In this document: one piece after another, positions 884-18,605 of the stretch
How positions within the stretch are numbered: the stretch's first letter is position 1
How the letters are laid out: each line of letters opens with the position of its first letter
Assembly: GCF_003336755.1 (NCBI RefSeq)
Contig: NZ_QMDI01000013.1
Coordinates: forward strand, 1 to 64,000
Source: Elioraea thermophila (ex Habib et al. 2022)
Lineage (GTDB): Bacteria > Pseudomonadota > Alphaproteobacteria > Acetobacterales > Acetobacteraceae
Direction of reading: 5' to 3'
DNA length: 64,000 bases
The notes under the pieces: model-generated
Seen by the model: the letters and a program-made list of their open reading frames with translations, nothing else
The model's database searches: none
What the model was told of the DNA's origin: nothing
Made by a program: the position numbers and the translations under genes

Positions 884-3211
884 CTACTCGGCTGCCTCCG
901 GCGCCGTACGCGGCAACACCAAGCCACGGCCGCGCGGCTTCGGCTTGGCCCGGCGGCGCAGTTCCCGGATCTCCTCCATCTCGCGGGCAAGGCTCCGCAC
1001 AAGCGCCTCACGCCCCGGGGCGTACTGAACCGGACCATCGAGAATCAGCCCATATTGGGCGGCACCGCGCAGCACGAAGGAGGGCTCGGCGAGATGCGGG
1101 CGACCGAAGGCGACGAGATCCGCCCGCCCCGCACCGAGGATGGTGTTGGCCTGATCGACGCTGGTGATGGAGCCGACGCACATTGTGGCAAGCCCCACCT
1201 CGTTGCGGATCATGTCCGCCCACGGCACCTGGAACATCCGCCCGTACTTCGGCCTTGCCTCCGGTACCGTCTGACCTGTCGAGACGTCGATCAGGTCGCA
1301 GCCCGCCTCGGCGAAGAGCCGCGCGATGGCGATCACGTCGTGATCGCTGATCCCTCCCTCGACCCAGTCGGTCGCCGAGATCCGTACGCTCATCGGCTTC
1401 TCCTCGGGCCAAACCGCGCGCATCGCCCGAAACACCTCGAGGGGAAAGCGGGCACGGTTCTCGATCGGTCCGCCATACTCGTCCCGCCGGCGATTGGTGA
1501 GCGGCGAGAGGAAGGAGGCGAGCAGGTAGCCGTGTGCGCAGTGCAGTTCGAGCAGGTCGAAGCCACACTCGATCGCCCGTCGTGTTGCGGCGACGAACTG
1601 ATCGCGAACCCGCTCCATGTCGTCGCGCGTCATCTCGCGCGGCACTTGGCTGTCCGGATAGTACGGCAAGGGTGAGGGCGCGATGATCGGCCAACCGCCC
1701 TCGGGCAGAGGCCGGTCCATGCCCTCCCACATGAGGCGAGTCGCTCCCTTGCGGCCGGCATGCCCGAGTTGCAGCGCGACCTTCGCCGTCCCGTTCGCGT
1801 GCACGAACGCGACGATGCGCCGCCACGCCGCAACCTGCGCGTCATTCCACAATCCGGTACAGCCGGGTGTGATGCGGGCGTCCGGGGCGACGCAGGTCAT
1901 CTCGGTGAACAGGAGGCCCGCCCCACCCATCCCGCGCGCGCCGTAGTGGACCAGATGCCAGTCCCCGGGCACGCCATCGACCGCCGAATATTGGCACATC
2001 GGCGACACGACCAGACGGTTGGCGAGGGTCAGCCCGCGCAGCCGGAAGGGCTGGAACGCCGGCGGAAGCGACGGGTCACCACCTGCCGCACGACCGAAAT
2101 CCTCCCGCACCCGCCGTACGAAATCCGGCGCGCGCAACTCGAGATTGTCATAGGTGATCGCCTTCGACCGCGTCATCAATCCGAACGCGAACTGGATCGG
2201 GCGGAAGCCCCAGAACCGCCGCACGTGCTCGAACCAAACGAGCGACACGTCGGCTGCGTGCTGCGTCTTCTCGACCTCCTCGCGTCGCGTCTCCTCGAAA
2301 CGGGCGAGGGCGGCGGCCACACCACCACCTGCCGCGAAGGCGCGATGCAGTGCGATCGCATCCTCCATGGCGAGCTTGGTCCCGCTGCCGATCGAGAAGT
2401 GCGCCGACGCCTTCGCGTCGCCGAGCAGGACCACATTGTCCTTCACCCAGCGCGCGCAGCGGATCATCGGAAAGCGGCGCCAGATCGAACGGTTCGTGCG
2501 CAGACGGTGACCAGCGAGTTCGAACGCGAAGACGCCCTCAAGGAATCTCGCGCTCTCGGCCTCGTCGCTCTCCGCCAGGCCGGCACGCGCGAAGGTCTCG
2601 GGGTCGGTCTCCAGCACCCAGGTGCTTGCGTTCGCCTCATACTGGTAGCAGTGGGCGATGAAGATCCCGTACTCGGTTTCGCGGAAGAAGAAGTGGAACG
2701 CATCCAAGCTGCGGGTCGACCCCATCCAGGCGAAACGATTCGGCCGCAGATCGACTTCCGGTTCGAAATGGTCCGCAAACCGGGTTCGGACGGCGCTGTT
2801 GATCCCGTCCGAGGCGACGATCAGATCGGCATCCGGGAAATCCTCGGGGCTTGCCTCCCGCCTGAACTCGAGCCGAACGCCGAGGCGCCTCGCACGCTGC
2901 TGCAGGATTTGCAGGAGGCGAACACGGGACAGGCCGCAGAAGCCGTTCCCCCCGATCCTGAACACCTCACCCTTGAAATGGATCGCGATGTCGTCCCACC
3001 AGGCGAATTCCTGGGCGATCGCGGCGAAAGTCTCAGGGTCGGCGTCCTCGATCGTCTCGAGCGTCTGATCCGAGAAGACGACACCGAATCCGAAGGTGTC
3101 GTCGGGCGCGTTGCGCTCGACGACCAGCACGTCAGCGTTCGGCCAATCGCGCTTGAACAGGATGGCGAAGTAGAGCCCCGCCGGGCCACCTCCGATGATC
3201 CTGACCCGCAT
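884..3211 (-). CDS. abmA: 2-aminobenzoyl-CoA monooxygenase/reductase (bifunctional, FAD monooxygenase fused to Old Yellow Enzyme)
   Basis: A 775-residue fusion. Residues 1-375 are a flavoprotein monooxygenase: '[13 protein letters not shown]' is the dinucleotide fold and '[18 protein letters not shown]' (about 260-277) is the second FAD motif. Residues from about 385 are an Old Yellow Enzyme reductase ('[13 protein letters not shown]', '[19 protein letters not shown]', 'RRDEYGG'). This architecture is that of 2-aminobenzoyl-CoA monooxygenase/reductase, which hydroxylates and then reduces the CoA-activated anthranilate ring without oxygenolytic cleavage; the related label is salicylyl-CoA 5-hydroxylase. 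The ATG at 3211 was chosen because GGAGAGGGAAGG lies directly upstream and the FAD motif starts at residue 4; the frame is open further up but carries no family sequence. It diverges from the CoA-pathway operon starting at 3279. Salicylyl-CoA as substrate cannot be excluded. Confidence 0.88.
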
Positions 3212-3238
3212 CCTTCCCTCTCCAGCGCCGACCGACTG

Positions 3239-3268
3239 TTGCACGGCCGGCGAGCGCTTGGCTACAGT
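3239..3268 (+). promoter_or_regulatory. Candidate sigma-70-type promoter for the anthranilyl-CoA operon
   Basis: In the 67-bp space between the divergent monooxygenase and SDR genes, TTGCAC (3239-3244) and TACAGT (3263-3268) are separated by 18 bp on the + strand. Transcription would begin about 3274-3276, a few bases before the ATG at 3279. The transcript would therefore be nearly leaderless, which agrees with the lack of a clear ribosome binding site. The match is moderate and based on sequence inspection only. Confidence 0.3.
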
Positions 3269-3278
3269 TTCCGTGAGT

Positions 3279-4016
3279 ATGGGGAGATTTTCCGGGACAC
3301 GCGCGTTGGTGACCGGTGGGGGAAGCGGCATCGGTCTGGCGTGTGCGCGGGCGCTCGCCGCCGACGGGGCGGAGGTGACGGTGCTCGGGCGTCGCGCTGA
3401 ACCGTTGCAGCGTGCGGTGGCAGAGGGCGCGGCGCATGCGTGCCTCGTCGCCGATGCGCAGGACGAGGAGACGATCGTCGCGGCAGGGCCCTTCGGCATC
3501 GTCGTGCACGCCGCCGGTGCGGCGGAGAGCGCACCCTTCGCCGCGACGGACCGCGCTCTCGTCGAGCGGATGCTGGCGGCAAACCTCCTCACCGCGTTTG
3601 CCGTGGCACGTGCGGTCCTGCCGCCGATGCTCGCCGCGCGACAGGGCCGCATCGTGTTCGTCGCCTCGACCGCTGCGCTGAAGGGCTATCCCTACGTCTC
3701 GGCTTACGTCGCAGCCAAACACGCCGTGCTCGGGCTTGCCCGCGCCTTGGCCGTCGAAGTCGCCGGAAGCGGCGTCACCGCGAACGCGATCTGCCCGGGC
3801 TTCACCGACACGCCGCTGTTGGCGGCATCGATCGAACGGATCGTCGTCGCGACGGGGAAAACGGCGGACGAGGTGCGACGAAGCTTCGTGTCGTACAATC
3901 CGCAGAAGCGTCTCGTCCGCCCCGAGGAGGTGGCGGCGGCGGTGCTCTGGCTCTGCTCCGAGGAGGCATCGGCGGTGAACGGCAAGGCCATCGCGATCGA
4001 CGGGGGAGAGACGTGA
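3279..4016 (+). CDS. Short-chain dehydrogenase/reductase, probable 3-hydroxyacyl-CoA dehydrogenase of the anthranilyl-CoA pathway
   Basis: A 245-residue classical SDR. It has the N-terminal NAD(P) motif 'VTGGGSGIG', the 'HAAG' stretch, the catalytic Ser in '[11 protein letters not shown]' and the YxxxK pair in 'YVAAKHA', and it ends in the usual '[10 protein letters not shown]'. In the pathway it would oxidise a hydroxyacyl-CoA formed after ring hydration. The ATG at 3279 puts the glycine motif in the normal place; a GTG six bases upstream is an alternative. The stop overlaps the next gene's GTG (GTGA), so the two are translationally coupled. The exact substrate is inferred from context. Confidence 0.82.
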
Positions 4017-4831
4017 TCGAAGGCGCACTCGCCGAGTATCGGGCGAGCCACTTCCGTTTCGAGGTCTCGGACGGGGTCGGCATCGTCACCCTCGATCGCG
4101 CGGAACGCAAGAATCCCCTCACCTTCGCGAGCTATCGCGAGCTCGCCCGGCTGTTCCGCCTTGCCGCGACCGACGACAGCGTCCACGCCTTCGTCATCAC
4201 CGGGGCGGGGGGAAACTTCTGCTCCGGCGGCGACGTCCACGAGATCATCGGCCCTCTCCTTCGTCGCAACAGCCGCGGCCTTCTCGATTTCACGTCGATG
4301 ACGGGGGAGCTCGTGAAGGCGATGCGGGGCTGCGGCCAGCCCATCGTCGCCGCGATCGACGGTGTGGCCGCCGGCGCGGGCGCGATCATCGCCATGGCCT
4401 CCGACCTCAGGCTCGCCACGCCGCGGGCGTCCGTCGCCTTCCTGTTCACGCGGGTCGGCCTCGCCGGCTGCGACATGGGCGCCTGCGCCATGCTGCCCAG
4501 GCTGATCGGACACGGCAGGGCAACGGAACTCCTGCTCACGGGTCGCGCCATGACCGCCGAAGAGGGACTCGCCTGGGGCTTCCACAATCGGCTCGTCGCG
4601 GCGGAGGAGCTTCTCGCGGAAGCGACGGCGCTGGCGCGCAGCCTCGCCCGCGGGCCGCGCTTCGCGCATGCGCTGACGAAGCGCATGCTCGGCATGGAGT
4701 GGGCCATGGGGGTGGAGGAGGCGGTCGAGGCGGAGGCGGTCGCGCAGGCCCTTTGCATGACGACGGGCGACTTTCGGCGCGCGTACGAGGCGTTCGTCGA
4801 GAAGCGCAAGCCCGTCTTCGAGGGCGAGTGA
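4013..4831 (+). CDS. Crotonase-family enoyl-CoA hydratase/lyase with non-canonical active site
   Basis: A 272-residue crotonase-fold protein. Visible are '[17 protein letters not shown]' at the start, the oxyanion-hole stretch '[12 protein letters not shown]' and the second loop '[18 protein letters not shown]'. The two glutamates of classical enoyl-CoA hydratase appear to be absent: 'GGGCEL' is replaced by 'GAGAII', and the 'PEILLG' segment by 'LFTRVG', so Asp of 'CDMG' or another group must act. It starts at GTG 4013, overlapping the SDR stop, with GGGGGAGAG upstream; the stop overlaps the next ATG. It probably hydrates or hydrolytically opens the alicyclic CoA intermediate. That role is inferred from the operon. 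Confidence 0.8.
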
Positions 4832-6003
4832 TGGCCGATCGCGACGTCCTCGCCTGGCCCTTTTTCGCCCCCGAGCATCGTGTCTGGGCGGCCGAGGTGG
4901 ACGCCTTCGTGCGGCAGCTTCCCGCGCACGACGAGGACGTCGATCGGGCGACCATCGAGCTCACGCGCGCCCTTGGCGAGGCGGGCCTGCTGCGGGCGGC
5001 AGTACCGGAGGACGGGCGATTGTCGGTGCGCCATCTCTGTCTCGCACGCGACATTCTCGCCCGCCACGACGGACTTGCCGACTTCGCCTTCGCCATGGCC
5101 GGTCTAGGTACGGGCGCGATCACCCTGTTCGGCACGCCGGCGCTCAAGTCGCGCTACCTGCCCGCCGTGCGCCGGGGAGAGGCGCTCGCCGCCTTCGCCC
5201 TGTCGGAACCGGAGGCGGGCTCCGATGTCGCCGCGATCACGACGGCGGCGAGCCGGGACCGCGATGGCAGCTGGCGGATCAACGGCGAGAAGACCTGGAT
5301 CAGCAATGGCGGGCTCGCCGCCGTGTACGTCGTGGTCGCGCGGACCGGCGAAGGACCCGGCACTCGCGGCCTGTCGGCCTTCGTCGTTCCCGGCTCCGCT
5401 CCCGGGATGACCGTTGCCGAGCGCATCGCCGTCGCCGCCCCCCATCCGCTGGCGCGACTGCGGTTCGAGGATGTTCGCGTGCCGGGCGATCACTGCCTCG
5501 GCGCGCCCGGCGAAGGGTTCCGGATCGCGATGACGGTGCTCGACCACTTTCGGCCCACCGTCGGTGCCGCCGCCGTCGGATTCGCGCGCCGCGCGCTTGC
5601 GCTGTCGCTGGCGCGGGCGACGTCGCGCCGACTGTTCGGCAGCACGCTCTTCGACCAGCAGATGACGCAGGACGCGGTGGCCTCGATGGCGACCGAGATC
5701 GACGCCGCAGCCCTGCTTGTCTACCGCGCCGCCTGGCTCAAGGATGGCGGCGCCGAGCGCATCTCCCGCGAGGCGAGCATGGCGAAACTCTTCGCCACAG
5801 AAGCGGCGCAGCGCGCCGCCGACCGCTGCGTGCAACTCCACGGCGGTTTGGGCGTGGTGTCAGGGAGCCCGCCCGAGGTGCTGTGGCGCGAGGTGCGCGC
5901 ATTGAGGGTGTACGAAGGCGCGAGCGAAATCCAGAAGCTGGTCATCGCGCGGGCGGAGCGCGATCGCGCGGCTGCTCCATCCGCCCGGGTTGCCGCCGCA
6001 TGA
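4831..6003 (+). CDS. Acyl-CoA dehydrogenase
   Basis: A 390-residue acyl-CoA dehydrogenase of normal length. The FAD/substrate signature '[15 protein letters not shown]' and '[10 protein letters not shown]' are present. '[17 protein letters not shown]' and the C-terminal '[15 protein letters not shown]' follow; the last carries the catalytic Glu of the medium-chain type. Start and stop both overlap neighbours (TGATG upstream, ATGA downstream). In anthranilyl-CoA degradation it would introduce a double bond into the reduced ring or the opened dicarboxylyl-CoA chain. Electrons would go to ETF, which is not encoded here. Confidence 0.88.
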
Positions 6004-7652
6004 CCGGGCTCGCCGGCCAGACGGACGAGCCGTCCGCCCATCGCGACCGCTTCGCGCGCGACAATCTGCCGCCGCGCGCCGCGTGGCCGGAGCTCCTGTT
6101 CGAACTGCCCGAGCTGGCCTACCCGGCGCGACTGAACGTCGCGCGGGCGCTTCTCGATTCGGCTCTCGTCGCCGGAAAGCGCGAGCACACGGCCATCATC
6201 ACCGACCGGGCTACGTTGAGCTACGGCGCGCTTGCCGAGCGGGTGAACCGCCTGGCATCCGTTCTCGTCCACCGTCTCGGCCTCGTTCCCGGCAACCGGG
6301 TCCTGTTGCGTGGCTACAACGACCCATGGATGGTCGCCGCATACCTCGCGGTCTGGCGTGCCGGCGGCATCGCCGTGGGGACCATGCCGCTCTTGCGGGC
6401 GACGGAGCTGGGCCAGATCCTACGCAAGGCCGAGATCAGCCACGCCCTGTGCGATTCCCGGCTGGCGGCGGAGCTTTTGGCCGCCGATGCCGCCTGTCTG
6501 CGGGAAGTGGCGATGTGGGGCGAGGGCCAACTCGAGACGCTCTGCGCCGAGGCCGACCCCGACATGCCCGCCTGCGACACGGCGGCTGAGGACGTCGCCC
6601 TCATCGCCTTCACCTCGGGCACGACCGGCGAACCGAAAGGCTGCGTGCACTTCCATCGCGACCTCGTCGCGATCTGCGACACTTATGCGCGTCACGTGCT
6701 GCGTGCGGATGCGGCGGACCGTTTCATCGGCACGCCTCCCCTCGCCTTCACCTTCGGGCTCGGCGGGCTGCTGTTGTTTCCCTTCCGCATCGGTGCCGCG
6801 GTCGTGCTGCAGGAGAGGCCCGGACCGGAAGAGCTGTTCGCCGCCATCGTCCGGCACGGCGCGAGTGTCTGCTTCACCGCCCCCACGGCCTATCGCGTGA
6901 TGGCCCGCCTCGCTGCCGAGTGTCGACCGCACACGCTCCGACGCTGCGTCTCGGCCGGCGAACCGCTGCCGGTGCCCGTGCTCGAGGCTTGGCGTGACGC
7001 CACGGGACTGTGGCTGATGGACGGGATCGGGGCGACGGAGATGCTGCACATCTTCATCGCCACGGGCGTGGACGAGGCCCGGCCGGGCCTTCTCGGCAAG
7101 GTGGTGCCGGGATATCGCGCGGCCGTGCTGGACGACGCTGGTCGTCCCCTTCCCGACGGCACGGCGGGACTGCTCGCGGTCAAGGGGCCGACGGGGTGCC
7201 GCTACCTCGCGGATGAGCGTCAGCATCGCTACGTGCGCTGGGGCTGGAACATCACCGGCGACACCTTCGAACGGACCGAGGACGGTTGGTTCCGCTTCCG
7301 CGCCCGCAGCGACGACATGATCATTTCCGCCGGGTACAACATCGCGGGGCCGGAGGTCGAAGCGGCCCTGCTCACCCACGAGGCGGTTCGCGAGTGCGGG
7401 GTGGTCGGGGCCCCCGACCCGGAGCGCGGGCAGATCGTGACGGCTTTCGTCGTGCTGCGCGAGGGCGTCGCACCCTCCGACGCGCTCGCTGAAGCCCTGC
7501 AGGACCATGTCAAGCGCACGATCGCTCCCTACAAGTATCCGAGGCGCATCGTCTTTCTCGGCGCGCTGCCGAAGACGGCTTCCGGCAAGCTGCAACGTCA
7601 TGCGCTGCGTGCGCTGGCGTCCCGGCAGGAAGCGTCCGACGCAGCCCGATGA
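6000..7652 (+). CDS. abmG: 2-aminobenzoate/benzoate-type CoA ligase
   Basis: A 550-residue ANL-superfamily enzyme. It has the P-loop-like '[11 protein letters not shown]', the adenylate motif '[14 protein letters not shown]', '[14 protein letters not shown]', the hinge '[13 protein letters not shown]' and the C-terminal lysine motif '[11 protein letters not shown]'. The 'GATEMLH' form is typical of benzoate and 2-aminobenzoate CoA ligases rather than fatty acyl ligases. It activates the aromatic acid to its CoA thioester with ATP, the entry step of the pathway. Its ATG overlaps the dehydrogenase stop, and its own stop overlaps the thioesterase ATG. The substrate is inferred from the neighbouring 2-aminobenzoyl-CoA monooxygenase/reductase. 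Confidence 0.85.
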
Positions 7653-8107
7653 GCCGGCCGCAGCCGATCCCGCCCGATGCCTTGCCGGCGGGCGCGTTCC
7701 GTCGCCCCTATCGCATCCGCTTTCACGACTGCGACCCGGCGGGGATCGTGTTCTTCGCCGCCTGGTTCGCCATCGCGCACGGCATCGTCGAGGAGTTCCT
7801 CGACCACATCGGCGTGCCGTTCGCCGCCCTCAACGGTCCGCGGCGCATCGGCACCGGCCTTGCCCACGCCGCCGCCGACTACTTCGCACCCGGCCGGTTC
7901 GGCGAGACCGTGGCGGTGACACCGCTGGTCGCGCGCGTGGGCGGCGGATCCTACCGTCTCGTCGTGCATGTGCATCGCGAGGCGAAGGAGCTCGTGCGGC
8001 TCGCCCTGGTCAGCGCAACCACGGATCTCGAGACCGGTCGTGCGATCCCCCTGCCCGACGACTTGCGTTCCGCCCTGTCCCGCTACCAGGAGGCGTGCGG
8101 CCAATGA
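7649..8107 (+). CDS. 4-hydroxybenzoyl-CoA thioesterase family protein
   Basis: A 152-residue hotdog-fold thioesterase. The hallmark 'FHDCDPAGIVFFAAWF' places the catalytic Asp at residue 29, as in 4-hydroxybenzoyl-CoA thioesterase. It overlaps the ligase by ATGA and the RidA gene by ATGA. In this operon it may release CoA from stalled or dead-end aryl-CoA intermediates, or act in a main step. The sequence does not decide between these. Confidence 0.85.
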   Translation: MSRPQPIPPDALPAGAFRRPYRIRFHDCDPAGIVFFAAWFAIAHGIVEEFLDHIGVPFAALNGPRRIGTGLAHAAADYFAPGRFGETVAVTPLVARVGGGSYRLVVHVHREAKELVRLALVSATTDLETGRAIPLPDDLRSALSRYQEACGQ

Positions 8108-8499
8108 CCCTCGAGACCATCCTGCCCGCGGGCTGGCCGCGCCCGAAGGGCTACGCGAACGGCATGGTCGGCGCCGGGCGCGTGCTGTTCGTCGGTGGCC
8201 AGGTCGGATGGGACGAGAATGGCCGTTTCGCCGACGGGTTCATCGCCCAGACGGAGCGGGCCCTGCTGAACGTCGTCACCGTCGTGCGCAGCGCGGGCGG
8301 CTCGGTCGAGGACATCGCCCGTCTCGTCTGGTACGTGGTGGACATCGATCTCTATCGGCGATCGCTGCCGGAGCTCGGCCCTGCCTACCGTCGGGTGATG
8401 GGCAAGCACTTCCCGACCATGGCCGTGGTCGGCGTGACAGCCCTCGTCGAGCCGGCGGCGCTGGTCGAGATCGAGGCGACGGCCGTGCTCGCGTCCTGA
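8104..8499 (+). CDS. RidA/YjgF family enamine/imine deaminase
   Basis: A 131-residue RidA-family protein. 'VLFVGGQVGWDENGRFAD' and 'NVVTVVRSAGGSVEDIARLVWYVVD' are typical, and 'EIEATAVL' closes the fold. It is the last gene of the overlapping operon. RidA proteins hydrolyse reactive enamines and imines to ketones. The product of 2-aminobenzoyl-CoA monooxygenase/reductase is an amino-oxo-cyclohexene carboxyl-CoA (an enamine), so this protein may remove the ring nitrogen; that is my inference. The usual catalytic Arg/Glu pair was not verified. Confidence 0.82.
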   Translation: MTLETILPAGWPRPKGYANGMVGAGRVLFVGGQVGWDENGRFADGFIAQTERALLNVVTVVRSAGGSVEDIARLVWYVVDIDLYRRSLPELGPAYRRVMGKHFPTMAVVGVTALVEPAALVEIEATAVLAS

Positions 8500-8938
8500 C
8501 GGGTCGGTTCGGCCGAGGCCGGGGGTTCGTGCGCGGCGAGGCGCCGGTTCGGCTCGTCCCCGTGGCACGAATGGTGGCCCCTGCGTGCGCCCCTGATCCT
8601 GCCCCTCCCCAGTTCGCCCGCCCCCTTCGCCGAGCGGCGAAATGCTTCGGCGCCCGGGAACGCATCGTGGTGCCCGCCGGCGTGACGCCGCCGCAGCGGG
8701 GGGTTCGGCGGAACATGCGGACAATCGCTGCGCATACCTGCAAGGGCACCGCCACGCGGGCTTGGACCGCCGCCGAGCCTGCGGGCCGTCTGACCGGAGC
8801 AGCCCGCCTTCATCACCGCGAAGACCATCGCCTGGTGGCAGGTGGCAAGGTCCAGGGCCAACGCCCAGCGGGGGATCGAGACGTCGCCGATTGTGCGATG
8901 GAGCGATCGGCGCTGGAATGGCGCGAGGGAGCAGGGGG
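8500..8938. other. Intergenic region without a supportable gene
   Basis: About 440 bases between the RidA gene and the molybdenum hydroxylase subunit. The frame of the hydroxylase stays open upstream, but the extra residues are Arg/Ala-rich and have no family character. I see no convincing terminator, promoter or RNA gene, although a promoter for the second catabolic gene block could lie here. Confidence 0.5.
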
Positions 8939-11166
8939 ATGCCGGAAGGCACCAGCAGCGCGATCCTCTTGGAAGCACGATTCGTCGGCCGCCCGCTGCG
9001 GCGGCGTGAGGACGCCGTTCTGCTCACCGGCCGCGGACGCTTCGCCGCCGATGTTCCGCCGCCGCCCGGAACCCTCTTCGCCCGCTTCCTGCGCGCCCCC
9101 GCAGGGCCGGCACGCATCCGCAGACTGGAGGTGTCGGCGGCGCGGGCCATGCCGCGGGTGGCGGCGGTGTTCACTGCCGGGGATTGTCCGCCCGCAGCGC
9201 AGCCGGCCGTGAACGCCGTCCTCGCCGGACTGCCGTCGGCGCGCTTCGCGCCGCTCGCCGGGCCGGAGGTGCCTTTTTGCGGTGCCGCGGTGGCGCTGAT
9301 CGTGGCAGAGACGGAGGCGATCGCCGACGACGCCGCGGAGGCCATCGAGCTCGATCTCGAACCGCTGCAGGAGACGGCCGCCGACCCCGCCTTCGCCTGG
9401 ACCTTCGGTGCCGAGGACGTGGCGGAAGCGACGCCGGTCGTCGTCACCGCAACGATCCGCCACGCGAGGCTCGCCCCGGCGGCGCTCGAACCGCGTGCCG
9501 TGCTCGCGGTCCCGGACGGCGGGCGGCTGCGCGTGCACCTCTCGTCGCAGACGCCGCATCGCGCCCGGACGGATCTCGCCGCGGTCCTCGGCCTCGATCC
9601 CGGCGCGATCCACGTGGCGGGCGGCGATGTCGGAGGCTCCTTCGGGGCCAAAGCCTCGATCACGCCGGAAGAGGCCGCGGTGGCGATGGCGGCGTGGCGT
9701 CTCGCGCGACCCGTCCGCTGGGTAGCGTCGCGCAGCGAGGAGTTCCTCTCCGCCCCGCGCGGGCGCGGGCTTTCCGTCTTCGGCCGCCTGGGCTTCGCCG
9801 CCGACGGCCGGGCCCGCTTCCTCTCGGCGACGATCTCCGCCCCGCTGGGGGCACGCCTCACCTCCTCGGCGGCCGTGCCGGCACGCAACGCGGCGCGCTG
9901 TCTGCCCGGCCCGTACGTCGTGCCACGCGTTGCGGCGCGCCTCGAGGGGCGTTTCACGCCGGAACCGGCGATCGGCATCTATCGCGGGGCCGGGCGGCCG
10001 GAGGCGGCGATCCTGCTCGAGCGGCTGATGGATCGCGCCGCCCGCCGCCTCGGTCTGTCCCCGGTCGAGATCCGACGCCGCAACCTGTTTCCCCCCGATG
10101 CCCTTCCGCACTCCACTCCGACCGGAGAGGTGCTGGACAGCGGCGACTATCCCGCCCTGCTCGACAGTGCCCTCAGCGTGGCGGGCGGCGCGTGGGAGGA
10201 CCTCGCCGCCGAACGCGAAGCGCGGCGGGCCCGCGGCGAGTGCGTCGGTCTCGGCGTCGGCTGCTACGTCGAACCCTGCGGCCGAGGCTGGGAATCCGCC
10301 CGCGTCGCGATCACCGCAGACGGCCGGATCCGCGTCGCGACCGGCTCGACGAGTCAGGGACAGGGCCGGGCCACGGCCGTGGCGCAGATCGTGGCCGACG
10401 CCATGCGGCTCGCGGACCCTGCCGAGGTCGAGGTCCTGCTGCACGACACCGATACGACGCCGGAAGGGATCGGCGCCCTCGCCTCCCGCTCCACCGGGCT
10501 CGGCGGCGCCGCCCTGCTGCAGGCGGTGGCGTTCCTCGAGGACGAGGCCCGTTCGGTGGCGGCCCGGCTGCTGAACGCCGCCCGCGAGGAGGTCCTGCCT
10601 GCTCCCGGCGGCTTCCGGCACGCCGTCGATGCGGAGCGCCGGATCGGTTGGGAGAGGCTGGGTCCGCTCGAGGCGGAGGCGCGCCACACGGCGACGGCGG
10701 AGTCCTGGTCGGCCGGCTGCGTCATCGCCCGCGTCGCGATCGACCGGGAGACCGGCGTCGTGACCATCGAGGAGCTCGCCTGGGCGGAGGATGCGGGTAC
10801 CATCGTCAATCCGCTGCTGGCGGAAGGCCAGATGTGGGGCGGGCTCGCGCAGGGCATCGGCGAGGTTCTCGGCGAGCGCATCGTCACCGACGGGGCGGGC
10901 ACGCTGCTGACGGGCAGTCTCCTCGACTACTTTCTGCCGAGGGCGCTCGATATGCCCGAGAGGGCGGGTTTCGCGCGCCCGAGCCAACCCTGCCGCGCGG
11001 CGAACACACCGCTCGGCGCCAAGGGTATCGGCGAAGCCGGCACCATCGGCGTGCCGGCCGCGCTGCTGAACGCCATCGCCGATGCCCTGGGCGACTTGCC
11101 GGAGGAGATCGTCCTCCCCCTGACGCCGGAGACGATCTGGCGCCTCGCACGGGAGGGACCGCGCGC

Positions 11167-11170
<4 letters not shown>
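8939..11170 (+). CDS. Xanthine dehydrogenase/CoxL-family molybdenum hydroxylase large subunit (orphan)
   Basis: A 743-residue molybdopterin-binding subunit. It opens with 'RFVGRPLRRREDAVLLTGRG', has 'GGDVGGSFGAK' and carries the active-site loop 'IYRGAGRPEA', the form II or non-CO-dehydrogenase version rather than the CoxL selenocysteine-copper loop. 'STSQGQGRATAVAQIVAD' and 'GAKGIGEAGTIG' near the end are also family marks, with the last Glu the usual catalytic base. ATG 8939 follows GAGGGAGCAGGGGG. Partner FAD and 2Fe-2S subunits are not encoded anywhere in the window. Such enzymes hydroxylate N-heteroaromatics, aldehydes or related carbons. It overlaps the next gene by ATGA, so it belongs with the lyase and dioxygenase downstream. 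Confidence 0.85.
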
Positions 11171-12701
<1,531 letters not shown>

Positions 12702-12918
12702 GGCCGACGCGCTGGGTTCGCGAGAAGCGAGCGGGTCCAAGCCGACCTGGTCGGCGGCACCGGCGCGATGGTCTCGCCGCGCGATCGCCCGGCGCCGCCG
12801 TGGCGGCGCTCCGTTCGGCCAACCAAGGCGCGGCCGGGCTTTTCACCAAGCGCCGAGGTGCGCTACGCACTATGGACGGGCCGGTGGCGAGCCCGACGGG
12901 GAGAAGGGAGACGGACCG

Positions 12919-14106
12919 ATGAGAATATCTGCCAGTCGTCGTGCGGTTCTGGCCGCAGGGCTCGCCCTGGCGGCCTCGCCCTTGCCGAAGCCGGCCATCG
13001 CGCAGGGTGCGCCGCTGCGGATTGGCGTGATCACCACCCTGTCGGGGCCGGGCGGCTATCTCGGCGCCGATGCGCGCGACGCGCTGCAACTGGCGGCGGA
13101 AATGAACGGCGGACGGCTCGGTGACGTGCCGGTGCAGTTCGTGGTCGAGGACGATGCGCTGCGACCGGCCCAGGGCAAGCAGATCGCCGAGCGCTTCCTC
13201 CGCAACGAGCGGATCCGCCTCTTCACCGGCGTGATCTTCTCGAACGTTCTGGGGGCGGTGGTGCCTGACATCCTCGATGCCGACGGCATCTATGTCTCCT
13301 GCAACGCCGGCCCCTCCAACTTCGCCGGGCGCGAGTGCCGACGCAACTACTTCGTCGTCTCCTGGCAGAACGACAACCTCCACGAGTCGGCCGGCGCGCT
13401 GGCCAACATCATGGGCTATCAGCGGGTGTTCATCCTGGCGCCGAACTACCAGGCCGGGCGCGACGCCCTCACCGGATTCAAGCGCCTGTTCCGAGGCACG
13501 ATCACCAACGAGGTGTACACGCGCCTGGATCAGACCGACTACGCCGCAGAGATGGCGCAGATTCGCGCCGCGCGACCCGATGCGGTGTACCATTTCCACC
13601 CGGGGGGCCTCGGCATCGCCTTCATCCGGCAATACGCTCAGGCCGGGCTTCTCGGCACGATCCCGCAGGTTCTGCCCGCCCCGTCGATGGACGTCGTGAC
13701 CTTGGCGGCGGTCGGTGATGCGGCGGAAGGTGTCGACGTTTCGAGCCATTGGAACAGCGACTTCGACAATGCCGAGAGCCGCCGCTTCGTCGATGCGTTC
13801 CGGCGTCGATACAATCGCATGCCGACCTACTATGCCCAGCAGGCCTACGACACGGCGCTCGCCATCGGTGCCGCCTTGCGCGGTACCGGCGGCTCCGTGA
13901 GCGACCCCGAGGCCTTTCGCACGGCCATGCTGCGAGCCGATTTCCCCTCCACGCGCGGCAATTTCCGCTTCGGCCCGAACCAGCACCCGATCCAGGACTG
14001 GTACGCGCTGAAGGTGGAGCGCGTCGGGGGCCAGCTCGCCCTCGTCACCAAGCGCAAGATCCTCGAGAACCACAGCGACGCGTACGCGGCCCAGTGCCGC
14101 ATCTGA
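12919..14106 (+). CDS. LIV/aromatic-acid type ABC transporter, periplasmic substrate-binding protein
   Basis: A 395-residue type I periplasmic binding protein. The N-terminus 'SRRAVLAAGLALAASP' with 'KPAIAQG' is a signal peptide with a twin-arginine look. The mature protein starts 'PLRIGVITTLSGPGGYLGAD' in the manner of LivJ/LivK and amide- or benzoate-binding proteins. It leads a five-gene importer operon (binding protein, two permeases, two ATPases). Its place behind anthranilate and 3-hydroxyanthranilate genes suggests an aromatic or N-heterocyclic acid as ligand; this is inferred. Confidence 0.87.
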   Translation: MRISASRRAVLAAGLALAASPLPKPAIAQGAPLRIGVITTLSGPGGYLGADARDALQLAAEMNGGRLGDVPVQFVVEDDALRPAQGKQIAERFLRNERIRLFTGVIFSNVLGAVVPDILDADGIYVSCNAGPSNFAGRECRRNYFVVSWQNDNLHESAGALANIMGYQRVFILAPNYQAGRDALTGFKRLFRGTITNEVYTRLDQTDYAAEMAQIRAARPDAVYHFHPGGLGIAFIRQYAQAGLLGTIPQVLPAPSMDVVTLAAVGDAAEGVDVSSHWNSDFDNAESRRFVDAFRRRYNRMPTYYAQQAYDTALAIGAALRGTGGSVSDPEAFRTAMLRADFPSTRGNFRFGPNQHPIQDWYALKVERVGGQLALVTKRKILENHSDAYAAQCRI

Positions 14107-14128
14107 GCCGGTTGCCGGAGGGGACGGC

Positions 14129-15043
14129 GTGGCGCTGCTGGTCGAGCAGCTGCTGAACGGCATCCAACTCGGCGTCACCCTCTTCCTTCTGGCGGCCGGG
14201 CTGACGCTCGTCTTCGGCATCATGGGCGTGATCAATCTCGCCCATGGCTCGCTGTACATGATCGGTGCCTTCGCGGCCGCGTTCGTCGCGGCCGAGACCG
14301 GCAGCGTGCTGCTCGCCCTGCTCGGCGGCCTGGTCGCAGCCGGGCTCACCGGCATGGCGATCGAGTTCGTGGTCCTGCGGCGGCTCTACGCCCGCGACCA
14401 TCTCGACCAGGTGCTGGCGACCTTCGGCCTTATCCTTTTCTTCAACCAGGGCATGGTGATCCTGTTCGGCCGTCAGCCGATCTTCGTCGCCCTGCCGCCG
14501 TTCCTCGCCGGCGCCGTCGAGATCCTCCCTGGCGTTCCCTATCCGGTGTATCGCCTGCTGATCATCGTGCTCGGGCTCCTGGTTGCGCTCGGCCTGTGGT
14601 TCCTGATCCAGAAGACGCGCATCGGCGCGCTGGTGCGGGCGGGAGCGACGCATCGTGAGATGGTGCGCGCGCTCGGGGTCGACATTCGCCTGCTGTACAC
14701 GCTCGTCTTCGGCCTCGGTGCACTGCTTGCCGGCTTCGCCGGCGTCATGGCGGGGCCGGTCTACTCCGTGAACGTCGGCATGGGCGAGCAGATCCTCATC
14801 CTCACCTTCGTCGTGGTGGTGATCGGCGGGGTGGGCTCGATCCGGGGAGCGATGTTCGGAGCGCTGCTGGTCGGCATCGTGGACACCATGCTCCGCGCTT
14901 ACGTGCCGGGCCTTTTGCGGACGATGATGGACGCCTCGCAGGCGGACATGCTCGGCGCGGGCCTCGCGTCGATGGGCGTCTATCTGCTGATGGCGCTGGT
15001 GCTGCTTCTGAAGCCGCGCGGCCTCTTCCCCGCACATGCGTGA
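14129..15043 (+). CDS. Branched-chain amino acid/aromatic ABC transporter permease (LivH type)
   Basis: A 304-residue inner-membrane permease with many hydrophobic segments. The LivH signature 'GLTLVFGIMGVINLAHGSLYMIGAF' region is present, as are 'GALLAGFAGVMAGPVYSV' and the EAA-like loop 'VIGGVGSIRGAMFGALLVG'. It begins with GTG after GGAGGGG. Its last 8 bases overlap the next permease. It forms one half of the membrane channel. Confidence 0.9.
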   Translation: MALLVEQLLNGIQLGVTLFLLAAGLTLVFGIMGVINLAHGSLYMIGAFAAAFVAAETGSVLLALLGGLVAAGLTGMAIEFVVLRRLYARDHLDQVLATFGLILFFNQGMVILFGRQPIFVALPPFLAGAVEILPGVPYPVYRLLIIVLGLLVALGLWFLIQKTRIGALVRAGATHREMVRALGVDIRLLYTLVFGLGALLAGFAGVMAGPVYSVNVGMGEQILILTFVVVVIGGVGSIRGAMFGALLVGIVDTMLRAYVPGLLRTMMDASQADMLGAGLASMGVYLLMALVLLLKPRGLFPAHA

Positions 15044-16010
15044 CCGCCTGCTCCTGCCGCTCCTGCTCGCGGTGGCAGTGGCGGTGCCCTGGGTCGCCGA
15101 GGCGTTCGGCACGCCGGCTACCGTCGGCCTTGCCACGCGCATCGCGATCTATGCGATCGCCGCCGCCTCGCTGAACCTCGTTCTCGGGTTCGGCGGTCTC
15201 GTCTCCTTCGGGCATGCCGCATATTTCGGGCTTGGCGGCTACACCGTCGGCATCCTGTGGGAGCATTTTCGCCTCGGCGAGCCCTTCCTCGGGATCATTC
15301 CGGGCAGTGCGGATCTCCTCGTCACCTTTCCCTCCGCACTCCTCGTCGGAGGGCTTGCCGCAGCCGCCATCGGCGCGCTCTCCCTGCGAACCTCCGGCGT
15401 GCAGTTCATCATGATCACGCTGGCCTTCGCACAGATGGTGTACTTCCTGTTCGTCTCGCTCGCGGTCTACGGCGGCGACGACGGGTTGATGATCCGTCGC
15501 ACCAACGCCTTCCTCGGGCTCAACCTGCGCGACCCGGCGACGATGTACTGGCTGTCGCTCGGCGTCCTGGTGGTCTGGCTCTGGCTGCTCGGGCGCATCG
15601 TCCGCTCCCGCTTCGGCAGGGTGGTCGAAGGGGTGCGACAGAGTGAACGGCGCATGGCGGCGATCGGCATCTCGACCTATCCCTACAAGCTCGCCGCCTT
15701 CACCATCTCGGGCATGGGCTGCGCCGCGGCCGGAGCGTTGTGGGCCAACTACGCGCGCTTCGTCAGCCCCGACATGATGCATTGGACGAAATCGGGCGAA
15801 CTGATGATCATGGTGATCCTCGGCGGCATGGGCACGCTCCTCGGGCCCGTGCTCGGCTCGGCCGCCCTGGTCGGGCTCGAGTACCTGCTCTCGGGCCTGA
15901 CCGAACACTGGCAGTTCGTGCTCGGGCCGATCCTGGTGCTGATCGTGCTCTTCGCACGCAAGGGGCTGATCAGCCTGCTGCCCGCCCGGGGTCGGCTCCG
16001 TCATGGCTGA
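15036..16010 (+). CDS. Branched-chain amino acid/aromatic ABC transporter permease (LivM type)
   Basis: A 324-residue membrane protein. It carries the LivM start motif 'NLVLGFGGLVSFGHAAYFGLGGY' region, 'VVEGVRQSERRMAAIGI' (cytoplasmic coupling loop) and 'ILGGMGTLLGPVLGSAAL'. It overlaps both the preceding permease and the following ATPase by 8 bases. It is the second half of the channel. Confidence 0.9.
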   Translation: MRDRLLLPLLLAVAVAVPWVAEAFGTPATVGLATRIAIYAIAAASLNLVLGFGGLVSFGHAAYFGLGGYTVGILWEHFRLGEPFLGIIPGSADLLVTFPSALLVGGLAAAAIGALSLRTSGVQFIMITLAFAQMVYFLFVSLAVYGGDDGLMIRRTNAFLGLNLRDPATMYWLSLGVLVVWLWLLGRIVRSRFGRVVEGVRQSERRMAAIGISTYPYKLAAFTISGMGCAAAGALWANYARFVSPDMMHWTKSGELMIMVILGGMGTLLGPVLGSAALVGLEYLLSGLTEHWQFVLGPILVLIVLFARKGLISLLPARGRLRHG

Positions 16011-16758
16011 GCCGGTGCTGGCACTGCAGGGGCTGCACAAGCGATTCGGCGGCGTTGTTGCCACGGACGATCTCAACCTCGAGGTGCGGCCGGGCGAAAT
16101 CCACGCCCTGATCGGCCCGAACGGTGCCGGCAAGACCACGGTGATCGGCCAGATCTGCGGCGAGATCACCCCGGATTCCGGACGGATCCTCTTCGCCGGC
16201 GCCGACATCACGGCGCTGAGCTTCGCCGAGCGCGTCCGCCGCGGCCTGGCGCGCACCTTCCAGATCGTCCAGCTCCTCGACGACGACACGACCCTGGAGA
16301 ACGTCGCGCTCGCCGTGCAGGCGGCGCAGGGGCATTCGTTCCGGTTCTGGACCGATGCGCGGCTCGACCGGCGGCGCACCGACCGGGCGCGGGCCCTGCT
16401 GGGCGAGGTCGGCTTGCCGCAGGAGCGTTGGCGCGTGCGCGCTTCCGACCTCAGCCATGGCGAGCGGAAGCAGCTGGAACTCGCGATCGCGCTCGCGCGC
16501 AACCCCAAGCTGCTGCTGCTCGACGAGCCGATGGCCGGTCTCGGCGCGGCGGAGTCCCTGCGCATGACGGAGGTGCTCCGCGGGCTGAAGGGCCGCATTC
16601 CCATGCTGCTCGTCGAACACGACATGGACGCGGTGTTCGCGCTGGCTGATCGGGTATCGGTGCTGGTGTCCGGCCGCTGCATCGCTTCGGGGCTGCCGGA
16701 GGCGATCCGCGCCGATCCCGTCGTGCGTGAGGCCTATCTGGCCGAGGAGGAGGCCTGA
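16003..16758 (+). CDS. ABC transporter ATP-binding protein (LivG type)
   Basis: A 251-residue ATPase. Walker A 'GPNGAGKTTVIGQICG', the signature 'LSHGERKQLELAIALA' and Walker B 'LLLLDEPMAG' are intact. The LivG-type insertion before the signature and the C-terminal 'VREAYLAEEEA' end are typical. It overlaps the LivM gene and shares one base with the LivF gene. Confidence 0.92.
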   Translation: MAEPVLALQGLHKRFGGVVATDDLNLEVRPGEIHALIGPNGAGKTTVIGQICGEITPDSGRILFAGADITALSFAERVRRGLARTFQIVQLLDDDTTLENVALAVQAAQGHSFRFWTDARLDRRRTDRARALLGEVGLPQERWRVRASDLSHGERKQLELAIALARNPKLLLLDEPMAGLGAAESLRMTEVLRGLKGRIPMLLVEHDMDAVFALADRVSVLVSGRCIASGLPEAIRADPVVREAYLAEEEA

Positions 16759-17459
16759 TGCTCGAGGTATCCTCGCTGCACGCGGGTTACGGGCGAAGCG
16801 AGGTGCTGTTCGACGTGAACCTCGCCGTCGCCGAGGGTGAGGTGGTCACGTTGCTTGGTCGCAACGGTATGGGCAAGACCACCACCGTCAGGGCGATCAT
16901 GGGCCTCAACCCACCGCGCGGTGGCAGGGTGCGGTTCCTCGGTCGCGATGTCGCAGGCCTCCCACCGGAAGCCATCGCACGCCTTGGCGTCGGTCTCGTT
17001 CCCGAGGGACGGCAGGTGTTTCCCACCCTGACCGTGCGGGAGAACCTCGAGGCGACCGCAGCCAATCGCTCGGGCAGCGCCCGACCGTGGCGCCTGGCCG
17101 ATGTCTTCGCGCTGTTTCCGCGCCTGCGCGAGCGCGCCGATCAGCTCGCCCGCACCCTCTCGGGAGGCGAACAGCAGATGCTCGCGATCGGTCGGGCGCT
17201 GATGACCAATCCGCGTCTCCTCATCCTCGACGAGGCGACGGAAGGTCTCGCCCCGGTCGTCCGCGCCGAGATCTGGGCGACGCTCAGGACTCTGAAGGAG
17301 CGCGGGCAGGCCATCCTGGTGATCGACAAGAATCTTCCGGCGCTGATGAAATTGGCCGACCGCCACTTCGTGCTCGAGAAGGGGCGCACGGTGTGGTCAG
17401 GCACTGCCGCAGAGCTGAAGGCGGAGTCCGAACGCGTGAAGGGCTGGATCGGCGTTTGA
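16758..17459 (+). CDS. ABC transporter ATP-binding protein (LivF type)
   Basis: A 233-residue ATPase. Walker A 'GRNGMGKTTTVRAIMG', 'GLVPEGRQVFPTLTVRENL' (a LivF hallmark), signature 'LSGGEQQMLAIGRALM' and Walker B 'LLILDEATEG' are present. It is the last gene of the importer operon. A perfect 14-bp palindrome follows at 17492-17505. Confidence 0.92.
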   Translation: MLEVSSLHAGYGRSEVLFDVNLAVAEGEVVTLLGRNGMGKTTTVRAIMGLNPPRGGRVRFLGRDVAGLPPEAIARLGVGLVPEGRQVFPTLTVRENLEATAANRSGSARPWRLADVFALFPRLRERADQLARTLSGGEQQMLAIGRALMTNPRLLILDEATEGLAPVVRAEIWATLRTLKERGQAILVIDKNLPALMKLADRHFVLEKGRTVWSGTAAELKAESERVKGWIGV

Positions 17460-18605
17460 GCCGCCGCACGCTGGCGCACCAGCCGTCTCCCCCGCGCATG
17501 CGCGGAAGCACCCCATGACCCACGTCTCCATGGCTTGCGTCGCAAGTCGAGCAAAGGAATGGTGAACCCGACGCGCAGTCCGATCAGGGCGAGCCTTGCG
17601 CGGCGCAGAGAGCTTTCGCTTCCGACCGTTTCAACCGGCGTCTCCGGCAGTGGCATCGGGTGAAGTGAGGCGAAGGGGTCTCTCGGTCGGACGGGTCTTC
17701 GGCTCTGCGCGGTCGTCCCGCTGATCCGCTGCAGGGGATGGGGTGTCGAACGATCCCGCGTCCTGACCTGCGACCGCACGCGGTGATCGAAGGGAAAATT
17801 GTCGTTCGCGAACGTTTCGGAAGCAGGAGGCCGGCCCCGCATCGGCTCGGTCGAGCCGCGCAGTCCGAAGCGGTCGAAGGGCACGTCCTCCGCTGCCGGC
17901 CCGGAGCAGCGGCGGATCATCGAATATGCGCTCCTCGCGGTGGTCTTGGAGGCCGAAATCCGTTCGGACCGTCCTGCATGTCGTTTCCGATCGGGCATGT
18001 TGTCGCAAGGCCAGGGCCCCTGTGAAGCGTTCGACGATGAGGTTGGCGAACCGGTCTCCGCGCGTGGCCCCCTCCTGTGGCCCCGTGGTCGCCGCCCTGG
18101 CCAGGAACAGGCGCCTGGTTGCGGTCCTGCCGTTGCGTACCGGGCCGCGGGCCGCGACGCCGCAGCGCAGCTTGGCGCTCCGGTTCTCAGTGGCATGGGT
18201 GGGGTGACAAGGCGCCGAGGGTCGCGCTCGGCAAGTCAGCGTCCGGGCGGATCATCATGCTCAAGGTCGATGAACAGGAGCGGTTCAAACCCAAGCCTCC
18301 TTGTCGACCTTCGACCGACGCGCGAGGTGCGGACCGCGAACCTGGCGACGCGCCCGCTCATGCCCGACGGGACGACGGCCCCGCCTGACCCCAAAGCACG
18401 GTGAGGGGTGGCCAGCCCCATCATGCAGGCGAAGAGCTTTCCTTCCGCTCATCTTCAGGAGAGGTGATTTTGCGCTGACCACTCCGGGTCGGACAGGATC
18501 GGCGAAGCGGAGACCAGCGGTTGCAAGCACACGTGTCTCGTCCCGTGCCGACAGCACTGGCAGACCGCCTCGCCGACCACCCCGTCGGTCGGGGCCGGAC
18601 TCGTT
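17460..18605. other. Long gene-poor interval between convergent operons
   Basis: About 1.15 kb between the importer ATPase and mfd, which converge on it. Open frames exist on both strands but are Arg/Ser/Pro-rich and match no family I can recognise. No tRNA or stable RNA structure was found. The palindrome CCGCGCATGCGCGG at 17492-17505 lies 33 bases after the importer stop and could be part of a terminator or a dispersed palindromic repeat, although no T-run follows. Decayed mobile DNA at the end of the catabolic island is a reasonable but unproven reading. Confidence 0.5.

Follow-up and report, generated by a model that had tools for sequence, protein, structure and literature searches.

Two predicted aminobenzoate modules in Elioraea thermophila and a proposed, apparently undescribed variant of 3-hydroxyanthranilate catabolism

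We analyzed a stretch of 64,000 nucleotides from Elioraea thermophila (positions 1-64000 of contig NZ_QMDI01000013.1, here referred to as "the window"), whose genome is 3.03 Mb in size and 98.7% complete. Two neighbouring gene blocks in its left part read as an Elioraea arrangement of two modules for aminobenzoates of tryptophan/kynurenine origin, not as one pathway. Block 1 is predicted to encode the known CoA-dependent aerobic degradation of anthranilate. Block 2 combines a 3-hydroxyanthranilate 3,4-dioxygenase (HAO), a DapA-fold lyase and a molybdenum (Mo) hydroxylase with an importer, and would be a widespread, apparently undescribed variant of 3-hydroxyanthranilate (3HAA) catabolism. Our overall reading, to which we give about even chances, is that the two modules are independent and that block 2 imports and degrades 3HAA while bypassing the canonical decarboxylase (ACMSD), semialdehyde dehydrogenase (AMSDH) and deaminase (AmnD/RidA), through HAO, a split by the lyase into C4 and C3 units, and an aldehyde oxidation. 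No description of an HAO-lyase route was found in the literature searched; subscription papers lay mostly outside that search, and the absence is no proof. The original prediction, made from this sequence alone, had named the genes of both blocks, and all of them were recovered at their positions. Those of block 2 and its importer are the following.

8939..11170, plus strand: Mo-hydroxylase large subunit (CoxL form II type; PF01315, PF02738, PF20256), proposed aldehyde oxidase; an aldehyde dehydrogenase (ALDH) stands in its place in other lyase loci
11167..12153, plus strand: DapA-fold Schiff-base lyase (PF00701; AlphaFold2 model and fold search), proposed from its co-occurrence with HAO to act on 2-amino-3-carboxymuconate semialdehyde (ACMS) or its oxidised form
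12150..12701, plus strand: HAO (NF009763 and TIGR03037 over cut-off; 1yfu at E 5.8e-71)
12919..14106, plus strand: periplasmic binding protein of a LIV-type importer (PF13458), nearest to HAO-linked binding proteins
14129..15043, plus strand: LivH-type permease (PF02653)
15036..16010, plus strand: LivM-type permease (PF02653)
16003..16758, plus strand: LivG-type ATPase (PF00005)
16758..17459, plus strand: LivF-type ATPase (PF00005)

All five parts of a LIV importer (one binding protein, a pair of permeases and a pair of ATPases) are thus present at 12919-17459. The Mo-hydroxylase start at 8939 is a chosen one, in a reading frame open from 8642.

The conservation of block 2 was analyzed in 80 named loci around the nearest HAO relatives, each taken with flanks of up to 10 kb (being the best 80 of 555, they favour HAO sequences close to that of the window), and in 385 genomes of the window's class, Alphaproteobacteria. 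Among the loci, the lyase was present in 56, the Mo-hydroxylase in 21 (20 with the lyase), an SSADH-like ALDH in 17, a LIV permease in 24, a TRAP transporter in 12, aspartate dehydrogenase in 21 (19 with the lyase), ACMSD in 11, neither lyase nor ACMSD in 13, and the block 1 gene abmA in one (L002). For the genomes we dropped 14 of the 50 with PF06052 matches (E>1e-30), leaving 36 with HAO, and one of the 24 with lyase matches (G102, E 4.9e-63), leaving 23. HAO then occurred in 22 of the 23 lyase genomes and in 14 of the 362 others (p=2.3e-25; this and the later p-values overstate the significance, relatives being non-independent, and the co-occurrences are uncorrected for genome size or kinship). 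Put differently, 22 of the 36 strong HAO genomes have the lyase as a different downstream gene, and in 16 of the 22 both genes share a contig, no more than 12.8 kb apart. None of 14 control genomes gave an HAO or an abmA match.

Block 2 is kept far beyond the genus, in Alpha- and Gammaproteobacteria and on plasmids, which is more than chance. Counted by eye, 46 of 47 plasmid lyase records occur among the 60 HAO records listed of 77; the 47th, from Phaeobacter, may be among the 17 unlisted ones, both tallies counting 23 Phaeobacter records. Plasmid pCO-6 of Chelatococcus carries a LysR gene, Mo-hydroxylase, lyase, HAO, binding protein, two permeases, two ATPases, a hydrolase and aspartate dehydrogenase, that is, the window's block 2 plus three genes. 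The claim of a coupled catabolic set made up of lyase, dioxygenase and Mo-hydroxylase, with its own importer, is supported, and the window's binding protein is nearest to HAO-linked ones.

Two side observations concern these loci. The gene downstream of LivF in L055 (15428-16558), found also in L004, L016, L051, L054, L057, L065, L066, L067, L076 and L080, encodes an alpha/beta-hydrolase domain preceded by N-terminal sequence that resembles RidA (hhalign probability 87, E 3.7e-6), unreported by Pfam in the two members scanned, and thus appears to be a RidA-hydrolase fusion. Moreover, a locus titled Mesoflavibacter (Bacteroidota; L041, CP051228.1) has a cluster very like that of G379 from the window's class, with a 95% identical LysR protein and sister lyases; its title may be mislabelled.

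Catabolism of 3HAA is usually drawn via ACMSD and AMSDH, according to parts of PMC5817917 and PMC10143591. Block 2 shares with this route, e.g. OnbC-D-E-F-GHIJ as given in part of PMC5817917, the initial 3HAA 3,4-dioxygenase, and differs from it in what follows. ACMSD was found in none of the 56 lyase loci vs 11 of the 24 others (p=2.4e-7), AMSDH likewise in 0/56 vs 11/24, and canonical RidA in 0/56 vs 12/24; the DapA-fold lyase, with the Mo-hydroxylase or another ALDH, occurs instead. In the genome sample 12 of 17 genomes matching the ACMSD profile were weaker than 1e-150 and were dropped (three of them lyase genomes), leaving five; at E<1e-150 ACMSD was present in none of the 23 lyase genomes vs 5 of the 14 HAO genomes without lyase (p=0.005). 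When mapped on a tree of the HAO proteins (80 rows, 67 labelled), the lyase/ACMSD label requires five changes, at least two of them forced. In the window's own genome neither ACMSD nor the lower-pathway 4-hydroxy-2-oxovalerate aldolase (TIGR03217) was matched at E<=1e-40; AMSDH was looked for in the lyase loci and not in the whole genome.

Such mutual exclusion per locus, of lyase with ACMSD and of ALDH or Mo-hydroxylase with AMSDH, is what same-step substitutes would produce. The lyase could then represent a new decarboxylase of ACMS, with AMSDH replaced by the Mo-hydroxylase or ALDH, the products still being 2-aminomuconate and those of the lower meta pathway. We regard this as unlikely. The canonical RidA/AmnD deaminase that it calls for was found in none of the 56 lyase loci, the TIGR03217 aldolase was matched neither in the own genome nor in 19 of the 23 lyase genomes (4/23 vs 6/14, a depletion that is not significant, p=0.13), and aspartate dehydrogenase is left unexplained. 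This last gene, which passes the NCBIfam NadX-type cut-offs, stands in 19 of the 56 lyase loci vs none of the 11 ACMSD loci (p=0.026).

Another partner in the module is exchanged among the lyase loci. The Mo-hydroxylase is present in 20 and ALDH in 17 of the 56 lyase loci, with no overlap (p=1.4e-4). In a tree of 46 lyases (one of 47 failed the length filter) the Mo/ALDH label needs seven changes, at least five of them forced by well-supported branches, and none of 500 shuffles was as low. Among the lyase genomes a Mo-hydroxylase orthologue (>=880 bits) occurs in 17/23 (p=6e-6) and an ALDH orthologue (>800 bits) in 3/23, all of family f23, again with no overlap; G339, at 708 bits, was counted with the former since its gene adjoins the lyase, although ordinary CoxL proteins of other genomes reach 709 bits. 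At these scores neither orthologue was found in the 14 HAO genomes without lyase, of which G080 has a weaker ALDH match of 649 bits. The SSADH-like ALDH lies below every NCBIfam cut-off shown and is distinct from AMSDH, which passes TIGR03216. Two unrelated oxidoreductases thus replace each other repeatedly beside the same genes, most probably as catalysts of the same step. Since an aldehyde dehydrogenase is one of the two, the Mo-hydroxylase is in turn probably an aldehyde oxidase. The original prediction had suggested a hydroxylation of the substrate; the swap speaks for oxidation of an aldehyde and not for hydroxylation of a ring.

The Mo protein has the molybdopterin-subunit domains of the CoxL form II/xanthine oxidase family and differs from that family in two respects. 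First, the block 2 orthologues adjoin the lyase or HAO and outscore the other CoxL-type proteins of their genomes, except in G339. Second, the window's large subunit stands alone, without small and medium partner genes nearby. The 2Fe-2S small subunit is not in the same operon, and the own genome's four Fer2_2 matches all lie on contig C2. A CoxS gene at C2:380 kb was considered as the small subunit and rejected, since its neighbour encodes the large subunit of a different Mo enzyme; subunits could be lent by a CoxS-CoxL-CoxM-like set at C2:444-456 kb (L110). Near orthologues elsewhere, putative partners are found (CoxG and CoxM named by eye): L108 has CoxG, CoxS and CoxM beside the lyase, and in L074 CoxG-like and CoxS-like domains in one frame (18229-19176), followed by a CoxM-like gene, end a Mo-hydroxylase/lyase/HAO/LIV/aspartate dehydrogenase cluster.

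The lyase family has 74% mean column identity across 32 members. The AlphaFold2 model of the window's protein (pLDDT 91.7, pTM 0.90) is a TIM barrel of the DHDPS/NAL type (4ime: Z 34.2, rmsd 2.2, 290 residues aligned), and Foldseek agrees. It shares with this superfamily, including its hydratase-aldolases, the fold, the Schiff-base lysine (K181, equal to K161 of E. coli DapA, in 32/32 rows) and the GXXGE motif, here GKQGE. It is set apart by 17-27% identity to the solved members listed, by scores below every NCBIfam cut-off listed and by its active site. E. coli DapA residues T44, T45, Y107 and the catalytic Y133 correspond to K61, Q62, F127 and W153, invariant in 32/32 rows, and because these residues are replaced so uniformly, classic aldolase chemistry is not to be assumed. 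Parts of PMC5380162 and PMC13398020 describe the roles of the lysine, the tyrosine and GXXGE, and a superfamily that includes hydratase-aldolases and a dehydratase lacking the tyrosine. The lyase would thus most probably work through a Schiff base, and its reaction is not readable from known superfamily members.

The loss of the tyrosine and of both threonines also suits an enzyme that does not cleave carbon-carbon bonds. Like other non-aldolase branches, it could deaminate or dehydrate ACMS, or ACMS already oxidised, through a Schiff base and leave the cut to other enzymes. The dehydratase KdaD is likewise without this tyrosine, as reported in a part of PMC13398020, and RidA, the deaminase of the canonical route, is not in the lyase loci. 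We consider this decidedly unlikely, as among the annotated neighbours in those loci none was recognised as a further, conserved cleavage enzyme.

We propose instead, as a tentative hypothesis to which we give somewhat less than even chances, that the lyase, a DapA-type fold whose active site has been rebuilt, splits ACMS (or ACMS already oxidised) in two. One part would be a C4 unit of the aspartate/oxaloacetate type, the other either malondialdehyde or malonate semialdehyde, and where aspartate dehydrogenase is present the nitrogen would be recovered as aspartate. HAO, a known family, would first cleave 3HAA to ACMS. The latter is C1OOH-C2(NH2)=C3(C7OOH)-C4H=C5H-C6HO. Lys181 of the lyase would form a Schiff base at C2 and expel the amino group; hydration at C4 and a retro-aldol split of C3-C4, as in hydratase-aldolases, would then release the C4 unit C1-C2-C3-C7 (oxaloacetate, or iminosuccinate together with ammonia, on an aspartate skeleton) and the C3 unit C4-C5-C6. 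The Mo-hydroxylase, or elsewhere the NAD-dependent SSADH-like ALDH, is expected from their replacement to oxidise the aldehyde, either on ACMS before the split, making malonate semialdehyde the C3 product, or on freed malondialdehyde. Finally, in some genomes, not the window's, L-aspartate dehydrogenase would interconvert iminosuccinate and aspartate. Such a split would account for the partners that oxidise aldehydes and for the recurrence of aspartate dehydrogenase, and would show how the own genome can manage without ACMSD and the TIGR03217 aldolase. The module, the Mo/ALDH replacement and the aldehyde-oxidase role are well supported by the gene comparisons; the lyase reaction is put forward as a hypothesis.

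The link to 3HAA comes from HAO and its neighbours. The window's HAO aligns with 1yfu over residues 8-174 of 183. The iron ligands and substrate contacts of 1yfu, which we take to be H51, E57, H95, R47, R99 and E110, correspond to H53, E59, H97, R49, R101 and E112 here. Three gammaproteobacterial loci (L044, L069, L079) join TDO-KMO-KynU-HAO to ALDH and the lyase, with no ACMSD, and this ties the module to 3HAA; six other loci have the same kynurenine genes, but with ACMSD. On plasmid pP97_b of Phaeobacter porticola a stretch of at most 14 kb holds HAO, ALDH, kynU, aspartate dehydrogenase and the lyase. At the limits used the own genome gave no match for TDO or kynureninase, which makes import the probable source of 3HAA in this organism (no search was aimed at an anthranilate 3-hydroxylase). 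The LIV importer would fit such a task: among 29 binding proteins placed on a tree, that of the window has its closest neighbours in the HAO-linked ones of L002, L006 and L010. The two abm-linked binding proteins pair separately (100/99), and their pair falls next to the HAO-linked L017 and L024. LIV (21) and TRAP (12) transporters never share a lyase locus (p=0.002).

ACMS can cyclise spontaneously to quinolinate, as stated in a part of PMC10143591, and the aspartate dehydrogenase scores as a NadX type, so HAO might instead serve NAD biosynthesis, with NadX feeding the same product. We hold this to be very improbable. The importer, the LysR regulator, the Mo-hydroxylase or ALDH and the plasmid location fit catabolism, the lyase would be left without a role, and aspartate dehydrogenase was not matched in the own genome at the limits used.

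Besides the inflated p-values, the replaced catalytic residues, the solitary Mo subunit and the insignificant depletion of the TIGR03217 aldolase, several observations weigh against the catabolic bypass as proposed. Amidohydrolases that match the ACMSD profile more weakly (E 1e-44 to 1e-48) occur in three lyase genomes (G060, G287, G366), and one genome (G224) has the lyase without HAO. In L052 the Mo-hydroxylase (7770-9962) is directly followed by HAO (10001-10561), with no lyase between. Neither Mo-hydroxylase nor ALDH was seen in 19 of the 56 lyase loci, many but not all on short contigs, and in 3 of the 23 lyase genomes. Aspartate dehydrogenase is missing from 37 of the 56 lyase loci as well as from the matches in the window's genome. 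Moreover, neither TDO (13/23 vs 5/14, p=0.31) nor kynureninase (15/23 vs 5/14, p=0.10) is significantly enriched with the lyase.

In four annotated plasmid loci the lyase is named only "dihydrodipicolinate synthase family protein" and the Mo subunit, where present, "xanthine dehydrogenase family protein". Our analysis gives a probable role to this unassigned lyase family and to an unassigned CoxL-type subfamily, and offers a testable case in which a molybdenum enzyme and an NAD-dependent enzyme are repeatedly exchanged. If true, the proposal would mean a new way out of 3HAA that bypasses ACMSD, 2-aminomuconate and the lower meta pathway across broad Alpha- and Gammaproteobacteria, and would correct the predicted use of tryptophan and kynurenine by marine and soil bacteria.

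Upstream of this module lies block 1, whose genes, with the gap between the two, are as follows.

884..3214, minus strand: abmA-type fused FAD monooxygenase/old yellow enzyme (OYE) reductase (NF006101, 1110.8 bits, cut-off 1078; PF01494 and PF00724)
3279..4016, plus strand: SDR-family dehydrogenase (PF13561/PF00106)
4013..4831, plus strand: enoyl-CoA hydratase (NF006107 over cut-off; PF00378)
4831..6003, plus strand: acyl-CoA dehydrogenase (PF00441, PF02770)
6000..7652, plus strand: aryl-CoA ligase, probably 2-aminobenzoate-CoA ligase (PF00501; TIGR02262 at 339 bits, below the cut-off of 375)
7649..8107, plus strand: 4HBT-family thioesterase (PF13279), also beside the abmA genes in L126 and L132
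8104..8499, plus strand: RidA-family protein (PF01042), with abmA in 6 of the 12 fetched abm loci
8500..8938: gap between the modules, poorly conserved, with no LysR gene recognised

Block 1 (884-8499) is, as judged from its genes, an ordinary, complete abm cluster. It was said to lack a complete partner list, a view that no longer holds, as L126 has the identical series of monooxygenase/reductase, SDR, hydratase, acyl-CoA dehydrogenase, ligase, thioesterase and RidA. The SDR, hydratase, acyl-CoA dehydrogenase and ligase stand beside abmA in 7 of the 12 fetched abm loci, which are hand-chosen regions, 11 of them from lyase genomes. The family name of NF006101 is salicylyl-CoA 5-hydroxylase and the benzoate-CoA ligase model TIGR02262 is below its cut-off, so that the substrate is not fixed by it; the gene context, including TDO and kynureninase inside the abm cluster of L125, favours anthranilate. 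This cluster (G252:C16:40000-58000) runs abmA-SDR-hydratase-acyl-CoA dehydrogenase-ligase, then TDO, kynureninase and RidA, and could lead from tryptophan over anthranilate to anthraniloyl-CoA. The 2-aminobenzoyl-CoA route of Azoarcus evansii, described in a part of PMC4539516, shares with block 1 the fused monooxygenase/reductase, the CoA ligase and the beta-oxidation-type genes. No difference was found in the features tested, except that block 1 here adjoins an unrelated module.

The original prediction had joined the blocks into one composite pathway, in which the Mo enzyme hydroxylates an N-heteroaromatic compound that is then cleaved and in part passed on to anthranilyl-CoA. The Mo subunit's family does include quinoline 2-oxidoreductase, and the blocks co-occur in genomes above expectation. 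For abmA we dropped 4 of 75 genomes with OYE-only matches (G113, G196, G210, G378), leaving 71 (partial genes in G007, G064, G290 and G294); the gene occurs in 18 of the 23 lyase genomes vs 53 of the 362 others (p=1.4e-10), and perhaps the co-occurrence comes partly from both favouring large aerobic genomes. The expected co-occurrence was thus found, but side by side, as read from coordinates in a sample with several fragmented drafts, the blocks stand only in the window's own genome, and of the 80 named loci only that of Elioraea (L002) has both. Neither block was present in four further genomes sampled from the same family. Together with the exchange of the Mo enzyme for ALDH, this leaves the composite route most improbable, and the N-heteroaromatic idea with no support. 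Two separate modules remain our reading of the neighbourhood.

From the SDR gene to LivF all genes lie on the plus strand, and stops and starts mostly overlap. The original prediction had placed the second set on the same strand as the anthranilate genes; abmA is the exception, being on the minus strand and divergent from the remaining genes. The closest named relative among the fetched loci, that of an uncultured Elioraea (L002), carries all 15 genes in unchanged order at 81-96% identity, with abmA truncated by the contig edge. Between the end of the RidA gene (8499) and the chosen Mo-hydroxylase start (8939) there are 439 bp, and because this spacer aligns poorly with L002 the two blocks are probably separate transcription units. 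In the spacer we recognised no LysR gene divergent from the Mo-hydroxylase, many other loci having one there, and a promoter and terminator scan gave nothing above shuffles. At the left end of the contig, positions 8-748 of the plus strand show a weak MobA/MobL match, below the cut-off (E 0.0027).

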